This document shows, in pieces, positions 22,920 through 49,982 of a DNA stretch of 64,000 nt (its first letter is position 1; the number at the start of each line of letters is the position of its first letter). A program made the position numbers and the translations under genes. A model generated the notes under the pieces. That model saw only the letters and a program-made list of their open reading frames with translations. It searched no databases and was not told where the DNA came from. The DNA comes from Cryphonectria parasitica EP155 (Eukaryota; Ascomycota; Sordariomycetes; Diaporthales; Cryphonectriaceae): NCBI RefSeq assembly GCF_011745365.1, contig NW_024468909.1, positions 2,914,001 through 2,978,000 of the forward strand, read 5' to 3'.

Positions 22920-24479
22920 TTAGTAGCTGCCACCTCGCTTCAGGTGCTGTGAGCGACGGCGGGCCTCCATGTCGTCATCAAATGGGCTATCCCCCCCGTC
23001 GCTTGTCGTTGGGCTCTGCCGAGGTTTGCTGTCATCGTAGTCGCCGCGCTCGGTGGAGGTAAGCAGCTTGCCGTCGGTAGTACGCGAAGTCATGGCATCT
23101 GACTCGGCACGGGCGTTGTTGAGCATCGTGGGCAGCTGCCTGCGGCGGGCATTGATAAACCAGTTTGAGATTTGGTCTGGAAGACTAATTAGCGTGGCTG
23201 AATTTTTTTTTTTTGGGGGGGGGGGAACAACACTCACTCATCTGGAGTCCAGTTTGTCGCATCAACTCCTGCTTCTCATCCTCGGTGGGATATGGGTGGT
23301 GGAGATGACCGACAAACCATGTCCTCAGCTTGTCCGTAGTCTCCTTGGGAAGGTTTCCCCTGCGCTTCCGCTGCTTGTTGTCTGAAGCCATGGCGAGTGA
23401 CATCTCGGCGTAGCGCATATACTCTGAATAGGGCGTTGGGTAGATGCCAGGGGAAAACGGCGTCCGGTCCACAGCGTGAATAGAGCCCATGGAAAGTGAC
23501 TGCACTCTCGATGGGTGGTGGTAACCGTAGTTGTATGGTGGGGCGGCCGGCCCAGGTCGGTAGGAGGTCGGACTTGCTTCGTACCGCTGATCAGGGTGGT
23601 GCACGTAGAGTGGTGCTCGAGGTGCCTCCTGGAGGTACTCATCGCTGGAGTGACCCCGAATGCGCGGCATGGGGGCGGGTGGTCCACGCTCCAGGCCCGC
23701 TGGAGGTGCGAAACTGGGCAGGGATGGGCGAACATCTGGGCGGTCCACAGGCTCCAACGTAGCAGGCGATCGGATCGCTGGCAGGCCTCCCGGGGGTAGA
23801 TGAGGAGGGCTCGCCCTCGCATTCGGTCCGCCCCACTGCTCTGGTGGTGGTGGTGGTGCTCCTCTCGGTGCGTATGCTGGTGAGGCTGGTCGGGGCATGG
23901 GCATCTCTGCGTGCCTGGGCGGGCTGTTGTAGTGCCTGGGTACGCGGCTCTGGCGCTCGTCCCTCTCTTCTTCGAGAGACAGACGCCTTCGCTTGTTTGA
24001 GTTTGGCGAGTGGACGTACTCTGGGGTCAGCAGGCCAGGCCCGGTGGCCGATGGTGAGTTTGCGGATCCAGGAGTCCTTCCTGACCCATCCTGGGGTCCG
24101 ACCCGTAGTTGCAATTCAGGAATGGCCTTTTTGATTGAAATGTCAGTGGTATTGTCTTGACTATATATGCACGCGGGCAAGAATACACCTTGGAAAGAAA
24201 GAAGAAGAAAAAAAGGGGGGGGGGCTTTACCTGGCGAATAGATGGGAGGGCGACCTGAGCGGCCTGGGCAGGCTGAGGAGCGTCATACCTCGGCCTTGAG
24301 GAGGACGAGGACGAGGAGGAGTAGTAGTAGTCTGCAGTCATCTTGGGTTCGTCCCAGATGTGACGAAAAGGAGGGTGGGGAGTTGGCGTGGCCATGGCGA
24401 GCATCGACATCTTGGCTTCCTGTTCAGTTCGGCTGTGGTAGGAGTCACTGCGCTCAGTCGAGTAAGGCGCGCCTTCCAT
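22920..24479 (-). CDS. TALE/KN-type homeodomain transcription factor
   Basis: Homeodomain regulator of the TALE superclass, related in kind to the Neurospora/Podospora KN-homeobox developmental regulators; the exact orthologue is not assigned. Exons on the minus strand are 24231-24479, 23238-24126 and 22920-23176, giving 464 residues. The N-terminal half is Pro/Ser-rich and disordered (an eight-Ser run after YYY, then PPPPP), with a basic patch (NKRRRLS). The homeodomain spans about residues 335-397: NLPKETTDKLRTWF, the HPYPTEDEK three-residue-loop extension, then NQISNWFINARRRQLP, with W48, F49, N51 and R53 all present. Intron 2 (61 bp, holding a T12-G11 tract on the plus strand) splits the codon for Asn43. 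Intron 1 uses an AAAAAG acceptor, its weakest boundary. The gene sits alone in about 28 kb, a layout typical of genes with large regulatory regions. Confidence 0.9.
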
Positions 24480-42927: not shown

Positions 42928-45900
42928 TCATTTCCCATTGGTACCCTTCAGGCGTTTCCAGAGCCCCCCTTGCTTCTGCGCCGCATTCTCCCGCGCCAGT
43001 CTTCTGGCAGCATACTCGAGAGGACTGATCGGCGGTGCATTGCCGCTCCCCCCGCTCCCGGCCTCGCTGGCGGGGGGCGCAGCTGAGCGGCCGGCGCCAG
43101 GGCTGTGTGGCGACTGTTGCGCCTCGCGTGGGTCGATCTCGTCAAACTCCTCCACTTCGAGCGCCGGGAGTTCGCCGAGCTTGTCTGGAAGCCTCTCGCC
43201 TGGAAACGAATACCCGGCTGTCGGAGCTGAGACGGAGCCACCGGCGGCCTCGCGCATCTTGTCGAGACCTGTGGAAAGGTTGCCCACGAGGTGCGCTTTC
43301 CTGTTCTCAAAGTATGAATCGTTGTCGTAGTAGGCCCCTTTGCCGTGCTTCGGCGGCGGTGCTGGTGGCGCCGGAGGCATCGAGACGCTCATATCCTTGA
43401 TCATCTGGTACAGGTCCGGGAAACGCCCCTTGAACTCGGCCTCGAGCTCCCTTTGGTGTTCATCCACAACGGCCTTCTTCTGGCCCACCTCCCGGGGGCT
43501 GAAGTAACTGTGCTGCGTGTTGCTTTCGTGTTGGACCCGCTGCAGCCATTCCTCGTAGCGTACCTGGTTTCGCCTGACCTGGTCCTCGGTGGGCGGCGTA
43601 GCCGATCTCAGGCTGTCTGCATACTTCTTGGCCTCCTTGGTCATCCGGTCGCCTGTGATGTACTTGTCGAATGACATCGAGAACTCCCGGAACGGCCCCT
43701 TCAGGACAAAACAATTCCCTGGCCAGCCCTCCCTCCTGAGGAGCTCCAATAGCTCGACCGCAGCAGGGCATTCCCAGAGGGCCTCGATATTCCTATCGTA
43801 GATAACTACACACTTGGTCTTGCTCCATCTTGTGAAGGACCTCCGGCTCTGCTCGTCCGGGAACGTGCGGTCCAGCATCTCGAGAGCGGCTATCCTCAGG
43901 AATTTCGCTGGCATCCTCAGGTTTACCGCGCTGTGCACGTGTGATCTCTGGAACTCTGATGGCGACCTCAGGTCGGCAAATAGGATCTGTGCTGGCGTGA
44001 AGATCTCTAGAAGACCATTGAGATGGCCAGCTAGGATCATCTGCGGGCCCTCCTGGGCTTCTTGTATCGTCTCCGTCATCTTGGGGTTTTCCTGGCTGGC
44101 CACAGCCCGCTCCCTCAGCCGTCGATGATGGAACCAAACCTTGGTGAGGCCAGTCAGCATCTCCAGACGATAAGAAGCAATAACAACAACATCTGGACCG
44201 GGGGGGGGGGGGAAGAAGAAGGTGGGATGGGAGTGATTTACCTTGACCTCATTCGCTTCTATTCCGAGGTGCGAAGCGTAGTATTCTGCCGTTCCATCGC
44301 TCGGATGAGGGTCTACCCTGAAGTATTCCTCGAGACGGCTGACAACGTGAGTAGCAAGGCGTGGGCTCGGAGGGATGCCTTTTTCGCTGGCGAACACCGT
44401 CCTCTTGGAGTTCCGCGAGTGATTCATCAGCGGCTGCCGGAGGATGCCACCTTCTAGTGTTGCTCCTGCTAGAGCCATAGTAGCAGCCAGTCCGCCGGTC
44501 CGGTATGGCGGTGTCGTCCGGGACTGCTGAAGCGGCGGCCGTTGCGAGCTGGATGTGGATACCCGAGCCGATGACGGAGCTGATGTCCTGTCTTGGCTCG
44601 CCGACGTAGCTACCGTCGTTTCGGGTTCGATCTGCTCCTCCTGCAGGGCCACACTGGCAGTCTGCGCCCGCCAAAGGCCGGCCCTGTCGCCAGCTGGGGC
44701 CTGCGACCGCCTAGGGCTTGAGATCGATGGGGCAAGGATGCTGTCTCTGAAGGTCGTACCAGAGAAGACGGAGGATCTGTCGCTTTGGTAGACGTCGGCC
44801 GGGTTCTGGAAGGGCGTCTCGGCTCTCTCGGGGTTCTTGACGAGATTGTTGGACCTGATGAATGCCACAAACGAGCAGGCCTGATCCTCAGGGAGCAGGT
44901 CCCACACGCCTACCGGCATCGACAGGAGAAGTAAAGTTGAGTGGCTCTTGAAGACACCCTGGACCTTGACGTATTTTGCCAGAGCCGGGAAGCCCGCTAG
45001 CCACTGCTCCCACGCGTTCAGGTCCAGCCTCTGGTCGTCTTCAAGGGCGAGAGAGATCATTACGTGGGGTTTGTCCTCATTTGGTTCGGTGCAGCACTCT
45101 TCGTCTTCCGCGGGTCCTCGACCCAGAGGCAAGCCTGAGGGGCTCGGGTCCTGTGGCGGTGACGGTGGGACCCTCTCATGGGAAATCATGCGGCTCATCT
45201 CGATGCTGGGCGCACGGTGGTCCGAGGTCATCATAAAATGGACTGGCGTCGACCTGGCCTCGAAGCGCTTGCCATTGATCAGGATGGGCCGTGGATGCTT
45301 GAGCCGAGCAAGGATCTCGGCGTGGAGCATAGCGGCCGAGAATGTCTTGAGGCGCCACTCGCCCAGGACCTCAATGAGGGCGTTCGTGAAGGAGTAGCGG
45401 CCTGGATCGGGGGCGATGGCATCCCAGCTCGAGGCTGATATCGTCTCGGTGATACTTTTGCCGTTCGGAAAGGTGGCCGATGCCGCGCCGGCGCAGCAGT
45501 CTAACAATACCAGGACATCTGACACGGACCGCTCCAGCAGCGTCTGGATAGCTGACCATTGTAGCGAGGGAGACCCGGAATGCCGCGTCGCGCACCAGGT
45601 GCTCTGCCTCGACTCATCTATCTTGGCGTGGCCTCCATAGTAGATGATGAACAGGGTGTCCTCGTGTTCATGATCCTTGATGAGAGAGCCTATCCTCATC
45701 ATGAGGTCGAGATGAGGGTTGTCGGCCGGGATAGCGAAGACGTCCGTGTTGAAGCCATAGTCCTCACGGAGGCAGGCGTCGAGGTCCTCGAGTTCTGGCA
45801 GCACGAACAGGTCGTCTGTCTTCCAGTGCAACAGGAGAACCTGGACATTTCTGTACCTCTGTGACGCCCGGCCCCGGTTGGGAAACGCCCTGCTGGCAGA

Positions 45901-46465
45901 CTGTGGGTGGGAGGATCACCTCGTAGTGAGTATTGTAGTCATCAAGGAGACAAAGGGCTGTTTGTTCTTCTCACCTCTTGGAGGGTCTGGGCGAAGCTGT
46001 CGAGCTGCTTCACGTGGTAGTTCACACGGCTCGTGTCGTGTGTAGCCGGAGGAGCATAGTCAATCCCCGAACCGTACTGCAGGGGAGGACATGGTGAGTA
46101 AGACGTCGATACCTCCTCAGGCCGCATTATTATTATGATCACTCAGCCCAACAACACAGAGAGGGACGACGAGGAGGAGGATGAACAAGAAGATGCAGAA
46201 GAGAACAGAAGAGACGAGGATCGGATGATGGGTAGATAGGAAGGGGAACAGGGAAGGGGGAGTATAAGGGACATGAACGGTCATGGGATCGTGGGGCACA
46301 TTGAGGAGAAGCATAAGGAATATAATGAGATATCGGGATATAAGGATGATGGATATAGTGACATGAGGAGGTACATACGGTAGAGTCAACGCTGCTTGTG
46401 GAGCTTCCCTCGGCCGGCCTCCTCGTCCTTATAGCATAGTATGGCTGTGGTTGCAGGCTTGCCAT
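42928..46465 (-). CDS. Caspase-like / homeodomain / rhodanese-like fusion protein
   Basis: Exons on the minus strand are 46379-46465, 45975-46076, 44242-45858 and 42928-44139; every junction is GT-AG and phase 0, giving 1005 residues. Residues ~40-280 form a caspase/metacaspase-like (C14) fold with His in YYGGHA (H140) and Cys in LLDCCAGA (C185), so the dyad is intact. A hydrophobic block of unknown identity follows (~328-402; STLLLLSMPVGVWDLLP). Residues 557-616 align with a classical homeodomain without gaps: L16, F20, P26, A35, L38, V45, W48, F49, R52, R53. Position 51 is His, not Asn. Residues ~640-755 resemble the rhodanese/Cdc25-homology fold (ADLRSPSEFQRSHV, CVVIYDRN), with Asp where the active Cys belongs. 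The tail is Pro/Gly-rich with coiled-coil patches. Function unknown; a signalling or stress regulator with DNA or MAPK contacts is inference. The domain order seen here is not one I know. Confidence 0.85.
44140..44241 (-). other. In-frame 102-nt intron inside the homeobox
   Basis: Donor GTAAAT after GAGGTCAAG, branch-like CTGAC in ATGCTGACTGG, acceptor CACCAAG before GTTTGGTTC. Its length is a multiple of three and it has no stop in frame. It separates homeodomain positions 46 and 47, the place classically interrupted in paired-class homeoboxes. It contains a 12-C run on the coding strand. The acceptor AAG is weaker than CAG or TAG. Confidence 0.8.
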
Positions 46466-48300: not shown

Positions 48301-49982
48301 ATGAGGCAGCGTATCACCTTCCTGCACAGGCCGCAGGACGCCGTCGACCCATCGACCTTCAAGGTCCTCGACAGCAGCCTGACGGGCCCAGTCTTGCCCG
48401 CAGTGAGGGAGGATCGTGTCACCCTGGCCCTGGACGAGCTGCCGGACGCGCTGCGTCAGGTCCTGCAGAGCTCTCATGAGCTTCACGTGCGATGGGTTAG
48501 CCCACACCCCTACGATACCGTGAGCCCGCTCTTCTCGCGCCTCTCGCCCGGGTTCCACCTGTTCTACACGCCTCAGCCAGAATCCCTGGCCCAGGAGTAA
48601 GTATAAGGATTTTCGAGCCAGCAGCGGCAGCAGCAGGAGGAAGAATGGATAAATAAATCAATGTATGTATGTGTGCTGATCACTACGCGAATAGCGATGG
48701 TCGACTCTGCAAGACGCTGCAGGAGGTCTTTGGTCAGGGCCTGGACTGCAACTCAGCCCAGACCTCCTTCACAACACTCCCAAACGACCGCTTCTCCCAC
48801 GCCACGGCCTACCAGTACTACTCGCCCCTGGAGTCTCTTAGGCCGCTCATAGCCTACGCCCACAGTACACTCTGCCCACCGCCATCAGCCACCACCCCGG
48901 AAGGTTCCTCCTGCGCCTCCCGCGTGGACCGTCTCAGCACTGCCAGCAGCCTTGATGTCTCGTGGGACACCATCAGCCACGCTCTCAAGGTCACTGCCCA
49001 GTGGACCTACCAGGACGAGCCCCTCATTGTGACCTCGCCCCTCGATGCGAATAATCATCGCGTCGAGGTTGGCGTGCTGGCCTCGGACCCTACCCAGCAC
49101 GGTGTCGAGCCCCACGAGATCGGCCTGGCCGGCGTGCTGACGGTCCTGGGCCAGGATAAGAAACCCTCGCCCACGGTCTTCAAGTTCCCTGCCCGTCACC
49201 GTCGCGCTGAGGGCGGTGCCTTCACCGCCAGCTTCTTGGAGCCTACAGGCCTGCACCCGTCGCTGCAGCTCCGGCTCAACAGCGCTGCCATCCGGCCCCC
49301 GCCTGGCGCTGCCGACGGCGCCTGTGCACTCCACACCCACCTGACCCTTCCGCGCGCCGTCTTCGCGGACAAGTACCAGCTCTCAGACCCCCTCTTTCTC
49401 GCAAGCAAGAACCTCAGCGCCCTGCGCTACACCTCCCAGCCCGTCGACCTCGAGGCACCCGACTACGTCATGAAGCTGTGGGGGTCCGCCGCGCTGCTCG
49501 AGCTCTCCCTTCCTCCTCCTCCGGAGCTAGAGGCAGAGCTAGGCCTCGACGCGTGGACGGCTGAGGTACCCCTTCACCTCCGCTATCTGGCCCCTGCGCC
49601 TGGTGGGTACAGAGACGTCGAGGTGCCCTACCCGGCCGTCTTCTGGGCTTGCACCACCGAGGAAGGGACCAAGTTTCCGTCGAGCCCATTCGAGCGCGTC
49701 AATCTGGGGTATGACGGGCTATTTGGCCCGCGTACCGTATTCTGGCACGTCGACCCGCAGCCTGTTGCAGGAGCGGAAGGAGGAGATGCTCGGCTAACGA
49801 GTGGCCTCCGGGTGCCCGTCCTAGACGTGGACAGGGCCGGATGGGTCGGCATAGGGACGACGGTTGTCGTGGCCCTTGGATTCGGGTGGATCGTGTGGAA
49901 GCTTGTCCAGCTGTACCTCAAGACGGGTTACGGACCTGCCCAGCAAATGGAGGGGTTGGTGAGGAAGAAGAAGGAGCAATAG
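48301..49982 (+). CDS. PBN1: PBN1, GPI mannosyltransferase I regulatory subunit (PIG-X)
   Basis: ER membrane partner of the Gpi14/PIG-M alpha-1,4-mannosyltransferase that adds the first mannose to GPI precursors; yeast Pbn1 also aids folding of other ER proteins. Exons 48301-48596 and 48695-49982 give 527 residues; the yeast protein is 416, and filamentous forms are longer. The start MRQRITFLHRPQDAVDP matches the family N-terminus. The PIG-X domain lies in the C-terminal half, with the signatures VPLHLRYLAPAP and VPYPAVFWAC, and one membrane segment follows at residues ~482-507, leaving a short Lys-rich cytosolic tail (RKKKEQ). The intron is 98 bp (GTAAGT...AATAG) and splits an Asp codon. The gene is convergent with CBR1, whose stop lies 375 bp away. 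Confidence 0.9.

Follow-up and report, generated by a model that had tools for sequence, protein, structure and literature searches.

Can one fungal protein join a caspase-like domain, a homeodomain and a rhodanese-like domain, and what might such a protein do? The question is raised by a gene on the minus strand (42928..46465) of a 64,000-nucleotide stretch of Cryphonectria parasitica EP155 DNA, hereafter the window. A sequence-only reading had placed the three domains in one gene of four phase-0 exons and knew of no described protein that joins them. Judged by its homologues, the protein is the C. parasitica member of the PAH7/MoHOX4 family. This family is already known; its caspase-like head was not found in the literature searched, and in related fungi a head of this kind is joined to several other DNA-binding tails. 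The gene was rebuilt from the sequence as follows.

42928..46465, minus strand: whole coding span of the PAH7/MoHOX4 orthologue, four exons, 1019 amino acids
46379..46465, minus strand: exon 1, 87 nucleotides (nt), residues 1-29, with the Met start
45975..46076, minus strand: exon 2, 102 nt, residues 30-63
44242..45900, minus strand: exon 3, 1659 nt, residues 64-616, with the caspase-like domain, the middle domain, the linker and 46 homeodomain residues
44140..44241, minus strand: intron 3, 102 nt, stop-free, interrupting the homeodomain before the recognition-helix core
42928..44139, minus strand: exon 4, 1212 nt, residues 617-1019 and the stop codon, with the homeodomain end, the rhodanese domain and the helical tail

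All four exons are divisible by 3 and thus in phase 0, the three introns (302, 74 and 102 nt) are of the GT...AG type, and the N-terminus encoded by exon 1 resembles those of the homologues P0030 and P0065 when compared by eye. The frame from 45915 to 42928 is stop-free across 995 codons, intron 3 read through included; thus, the caspase-like, homeodomain and rhodanese parts share one frame regardless of splicing. The rebuilt model and this single open frame agree on one gene with three domains, as had been claimed; the claimed length of 1005 residues is 14 short. Given that intron 3 is stop-free and a multiple of 3, its retention would add 34 residues in the recognition helix, and an insert at this site, which we take as unspliced sequence, was detected by pattern match in 9 of 238 database proteins. 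The public model P0001 (Cryphonectria parasitica EP155; Sordariomycetes, Diaporthales) is identical to the rebuilt protein across every long shared stretch, differs at the start and lacks residues 444-465, 617-667 and 917-930. With the 51 residues 617-667, P0001 loses its recognition helix as well as the beginning of the rhodanese domain. No homeodomain is precomputed for P0001. These omissions could point to an artefact, in which neighbouring genes were fused in the sequence-only model. However, all domains lie within one stop-free frame, the caspase-like domain, the linker and most of the homeodomain lie in one exon, and the same order recurs across many genera; this explanation is close to refuted and, in our judgement, extremely improbable.

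A homologue search (E <= 0.001) yielded 361 proteins, the best 120 of which underlie all family counts below unless another sample is named. From these 120 we chose alignments of 78 rows (A1) and 46 rows (A2), favouring full-length rows with a precomputed homeodomain. An identical domain order was found in relatives of many genera, which we take to be Sordariomycetes (for Cryphonectria the taxonomy was checked). They include MGG_06285 (P0030; 55% over 89%) and the pah7-named P0061 (51% over 90%); P0065 and P0081 also bear the name pah7. Counted by eye, precomputed Pfam matches comprise PF00046 in 97 of the 120, PF00581 in 113 and PF00656 in 1. The look at other Sordariomycetes that had been suggested as a check hence revealed a conserved family. 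According to the main text of PMC3360767, PAH7 is orthologous to MoHOX4 (MGG_06285), and its deletion alters the distribution of perithecia with no other phenotype. Deletion of MoHOX4 gives smaller conidia (PMC2779367), and deletion of CsHOX4 gives larger ones (PMC8406175). The rhodanese domain is given as characteristic of this homeobox class in PMC5666362, so that the pair of homeobox and rhodanese is in print. The word 'caspase' does not occur in the main texts of these four papers, and no published description of the caspase head of the PAH7/HOX4 family was found in the literature searched. The claim that no described protein joins the three domains thus holds, within this literature, for the caspase part alone, the family being known as PAH7/MoHOX4/CsHOX4 with phenotypes.

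Is the head a caspase-like domain? Its features are these.

45184..45867, minus strand: caspase-like domain, about residues 75-302, placed by predicted fold, NF047832 and conservation
45628..45630, minus strand: catalytic-type His154 (YYGGHA), conserved across family rows
45493..45495, minus strand: catalytic-type Cys199 (LLDCC), conserved across family rows

Column conservation among 78 sequences revealed that the head is the most conserved portion of the protein, with 89 of the 228 columns of the caspase-like domain invariant. His154 is kept in 117 of 117 ungapped rows and Cys199 in 119 of 119; the wider 60-row alignment (A3) gave 60 of 60 and, ungapped, 57 of 57. Fold comparison showed that the predicted structures resemble caspases and MALT1, indicative of a caspase fold. 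Overall confidence in the models is low, with a mean predicted local distance difference test score (pLDDT) of 62.6 and 66.0; parts of the caspase-like core exceed 80, and values are lower near the active-site loops and across the middle domain. The sole caspase profile that matches every scanned member is NF047832 ('caspase, EACC1-associated type'), with E <= 0.01 in 46 of 46 scanned relatives (best 4.3e-9); P0002 scores 29 bits against a cut-off of 140. When 10 relatives of the head were scanned with PF00656, 4 were above the cut-off, 3 below it and 3 without a match. Those passing, P0217, P0221, P0224 and P0237, share 43-47% identity over 88-96% of the head. P0133 scanned alone gave no Pfam match. 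Automatic 'Caspase domain-containing' names on P0133 and P0220 and precomputed PF00656 on P0027 and P0287 indicate that databases have glimpsed the domain. The C14 domain with both dyad residues claimed earlier is therefore upheld in its His, Cys and fold, the Peptidase_C14 profile being absent on the window protein.

Two acidic residues of the head, Asp197 and Glu99, are both conserved (117 of 117 and 119 of 119 rows). Asp197 stands 2 residues before Cys199, as in the DSC motif of two further C. parasitica loci that we take to be metacaspases. Comparison with exon pieces of these loci by hhalign gave probabilities of 0.2-5.4%; one of the four stretches begins beside the S1 acid, to which Glu99 was matched by hand extension. 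From these acids near the metacaspase P1 pocket, we infer that the head may cleave after Arg or Lys. The head might instead be a structural or dimerization module of a transcription factor devoid of protease activity, as some caspase-fold domains act as scaffolds. Published work indeed treats the family as homeobox transcription factors (PMC3360767, PMC2779367, PMC8406175). However, a scaffold needs none of the His, the Cys and the Asp two before it, which are conserved in every ungapped row, and we regard such a module as unlikely.

The putative protease head is followed by a second conserved domain and a variable stretch.

44842..45087, minus strand: conserved middle domain, companion of the caspase-like domain, about residues 335-416
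44380..44841, minus strand: poorly conserved linker, residues 417-570
44392..44439, minus strand: conserved island just ahead of the homeodomain, basic at columns 551, 562 and 563; candidate cleavage or nuclear-localization site

In the middle domain, 34 of 82 columns are invariant among the 78 sequences, and conserved columns also appear in A3. Of four pieces searched against Pfam, three had no match and the fourth matched MACPF_D3 at E 0.26, which we took as noise; the structure-match lists were filled by the caspase part and hence were uninformative on this domain. EACC1 was considered as its identity, given that the nearest caspase profile is EACC1-associated, and was dropped because EACC1 is described in PMC7159879 as a transmembrane helix with short extensions. 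The linker has a pLDDT below 50 over residues 401-552 of P0002, and 0 of 141 columns are invariant over P0002 residues 405-545 (78 sequences). Within 416-570, columns 551, 562 and 563 are the sole ones in which 80% or more of the rows have a basic residue (109, 112 and 101 of the 120, respectively).

The C-terminal half comprises the two domains by which the family has been known.

44242..44379, minus strand: homeodomain, first 46 residues, placed by Pfam profile and alignment
44098..44139, minus strand: remainder of the homeodomain, carrying the rest of its recognition helix (VWFHHRRLRERAVA) with His51
43645..44043, minus strand: rhodanese/Cdc25-homology domain, residues 649-781, Asp731 in place of the catalytic Cys
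43360..43644, minus strand: mostly helical extension past the rhodanese domain, residues 782-876, from the predicted structure

The homeodomain of the window protein scores 38.0 bits in Pfam (cut-off 22.9, E 1.5e-9), and PF00046 was matched in 46 of 46 scanned relatives. Foldseek with the whole-protein model gave a probability of 1.00 to engrailed and BARHL2 at E-values of 0.06-0.08, in agreement with the three-helix homeodomain fold. Asn51 is a near-invariant DNA contact of homeodomains. The window protein has His at this position and Ser where Arg5 is expected; thus, the homeodomain is gap-free as had been claimed, but not classical. In Colletotrichum rows such as P0040, P0052, P0069 and P0070, Pfam has no precomputed homeodomain, yet a WFHHRR-like helix-3 motif remains. 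The rhodanese domain scores 29.6 bits (cut-off 22.2, E 9.5e-7), and its Foldseek matches to MKP5 and MKP7 (E 1.6e-5 to 2.6e-4) and GlpE (E 1.6e-3) support the rhodanese/Cdc25-homology fold claimed before. At the active-site-loop position that we take to be that of the catalytic Cys, replaced by Asp731 in the window protein, 118 ungapped rows have Asp (80), Ala (20), Ser (16) or Gly (2). The domain is hence predicted to be non-catalytic and of the MKP type.

The same head is also joined to other tails. Searches with the head (best 120 of 359 matches) and with a 14-row profile (best 120 of 561) found it so joined in Helotiales (Phialocephala, Acephala, Stipitochalara, Cadophora and Oculimacula among them) and Fusarium. 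Pfam assigned a Myb tail to P0192 and P0202, C2H2 to P0253, Zn2Cys6 to P0286 and P0264 (the latter barely above cut-off, 21.6 vs 21), and HMG-box, Zn2Cys6 and Fungal_trans together to the metagenomic P0265. P0266 and P0280 carry a homeodomain with the canonical WFQNRR and no rhodanese match. Further tails are C2 (P0237 above cut-off, P0224 just below), YDR124W-type (P0221, P0244 and P0246) and DUF3295 (P0215), and a second C14 stretch occurs in P0239 and P0267. Matches to bZIP in P0211, P0270, P0273 and P0275 are below the Pfam cut-off, and a basic stretch of P0286 is bZIP-like by eye. In a tree of 56 heads chosen by hand, the 15 PAH7 rows group together as a single clade with 100/100 support. 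The homeodomain rows of Helotiales fall in a separate clade of 8 rows (100/100), together with Zn2Cys6/bZIP-like tails. A single clade of all homeodomain rows, a group defined after seeing the tree, was rejected (approximately unbiased test, p-AU 1.2e-5). P0265, P0192 and P0267 are long end branches, with a warning of possible long-branch joining for the positions of P0253/P0217 and P0265. The tree is compatible both with a homeodomain that was joined twice and with one that was joined once and then lost in places; the differing homeodomains favour two separate joins. The C. parasitica genome itself holds a distant head paralogue at C9:1117114-1118203 (29-39% identity, DTC instead of DCC), downstream of which C2H2-like fingers seen by eye were not confirmed by Pfam. 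More distant head matches lie at C4:1632995-1633633, C4:1861898-1862149 and C5:1032463-1033421, the last preceded in the same open frame by a Zn2Cys6-like motif below the Pfam cut-off.

These features enable us to propose, tentatively, a model in which the caspase-like head of PAH7, a putative protease, is activated by a signal and cleaves its own chain to free a homeodomain-rhodanese regulator. By sequence and predicted fold, the protein opens with a constant head, in which the caspase fold is accompanied by a second domain of 80 residues. A linker that is probably flexible leads on to the divergent homeodomain and to the rhodanese domain, predicted to be non-catalytic and of the MKP type. 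The rhodanese domain would serve as a docking site, with a mitogen-activated protein (MAP) kinase as the leading candidate partner. Upon a developmental signal, the active head would cut its own linker after basic residues, possibly at the basic island before the homeodomain. Finally, the freed part would enter the nucleus and act on fruiting-body and spore patterning genes. Release or tuning of a factor by cleavage, raised already in the sequence-only reading, is speculation; the fusion of the head to other DNA-binding domains makes it more plausible.

Several observations weigh against this model. Pfam did not report Peptidase_C14 for the window protein at E <= 1, and PF00656 reached E <= 0.05 in just 3 of 46 scanned family members. 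A sequence search of the PDB with A3 found 41 chains, none of them a caspase, and the best 60 of 129 found with A2 are homeodomain or DUSP/Cdc25 chains; thus, these sequence searches found no solved relative of the head. Model confidence around the catalytic Cys is middling. The basic island could equally serve as a nuclear-localization signal, and the known deletion phenotypes do not part protease from DNA-binding roles. The tails are DNA-binding by family in some cases and not for C2, DUF3295 and YDR124W, and the fusions in other fungi come from automatic gene models, some in one or two species. Furthermore, Asn51 is present in 6 of 115 ungapped rows, pah7-named entries included, and PF00046 is not precomputed in 23 of the 120, many of them from Colletotrichum. 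DNA binding is therefore doubtful, and the loss of the usual Asn51 in the other 109 rows speaks against a simple version of cleavage and release. The same columns, with Arg5 in just 9 of 118 ungapped rows, would suit a caspase-like protease acting on other proteins, for which the homeodomain and the rhodanese domain are targeting adaptors without self-cleavage or DNA binding. The head being the most conserved part and the MKP-like rhodanese lacking its Cys also agree with such an enzyme. However, head relatives with intact-looking DNA-binding tails (WFQNRR in P0266 and P0280, Myb, C2H2) suggest a destination on DNA, and Asn51 is kept in six rows; we consider the adaptor arrangement somewhat unlikely.

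Beyond PAH7, Pezizomycotina might have a whole class of transcription regulators headed by a caspase-like protease. One constant head would have been joined repeatedly to varied DNA-binding tails (Myb, C2H2, Zn2Cys6 and bZIP-like, HMG-box, and a homeodomain on probably two occasions), with self-cleavage as the switch. This would be a eukaryotic counterpart of bacterial constant-caspase systems turned to development. Such a class is at present a doubtful proposition.

Two neighbours were noted in the window. A TALE homeobox gene, possibly the pah5 orthologue, is separated from the PAH7 gene by about 20 kb, in keeping with the tight linkage of pah5 and pah7 in Podospora (PMC3360767).

22920-24478, minus strand: TALE homeobox gene, homeodomain exons 23139-23319, ends set by eye
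48657-49979, plus strand: PIG-X/PBN1 gene (PF08320, E 1.4e-66), adjoining the PAH7 gene

To our knowledge, fungi lack true caspases, and this family could wire caspase-like proteolysis directly to fungal gene regulation. The widest interest lies in a single caspase-like head across several kinds of DNA-binding tail. A developmental 'homeobox' family, the subject of knock-out studies since 2009 (PMC2779367), seems to have a conserved caspase-like domain at its core, and the first question shifts to whether the PAH7/HOX4 phenotypes depend on protease function or on the homeodomain. There is also a parallel, open to testing, with bacterial systems whose constant caspase has been proposed to set free the variable domain fused to it.

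Among known systems, the rhodanese domain of PAH7 is matched best, both in sequence and by Foldseek, by the rhodanese (CH2) domains of MAP-kinase phosphatases (MKPs) such as MKP3, MKP5 and MKP7. MKP CH2 domains are likewise non-catalytic; unlike MKPs, the window protein shows no phosphatase domain in Pfam. The head has the fold and the dyad in common with metacaspases and the MALT1 paracaspase (C14), at low identity to MALT1 chains (14-17%), and its acids suggest a basic P1 residue. Family and domain order are common to PAH7 of Podospora anserina, MoHOX4 (MGG_06285) of Magnaporthe oryzae, CsHOX4 and NCU00100 of Neurospora crassa; in print, PAH7/HOX4 proteins are homeobox transcription factors for which the main texts name the rhodanese (PMC5666362, PMC8406175) and not the caspase domain. 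The bacterial EACC1 system differs in comprising two genes, the EACC1 partner bearing a transmembrane helix (PMC7159879), and P0002 with its 29 bits stays far below the 140-bit cut-off of NF047832. Nevertheless, the bacterial EACC1-associated caspases are reminiscent of the fungal set. In PMC7159879 their N-terminal caspase is described as constant and their C-terminal domain as one of up to 50 alternatives, with autoproteolysis proposed; in the fungal set, a constant N-terminal caspase-like head likewise precedes variable C-terminal domains.
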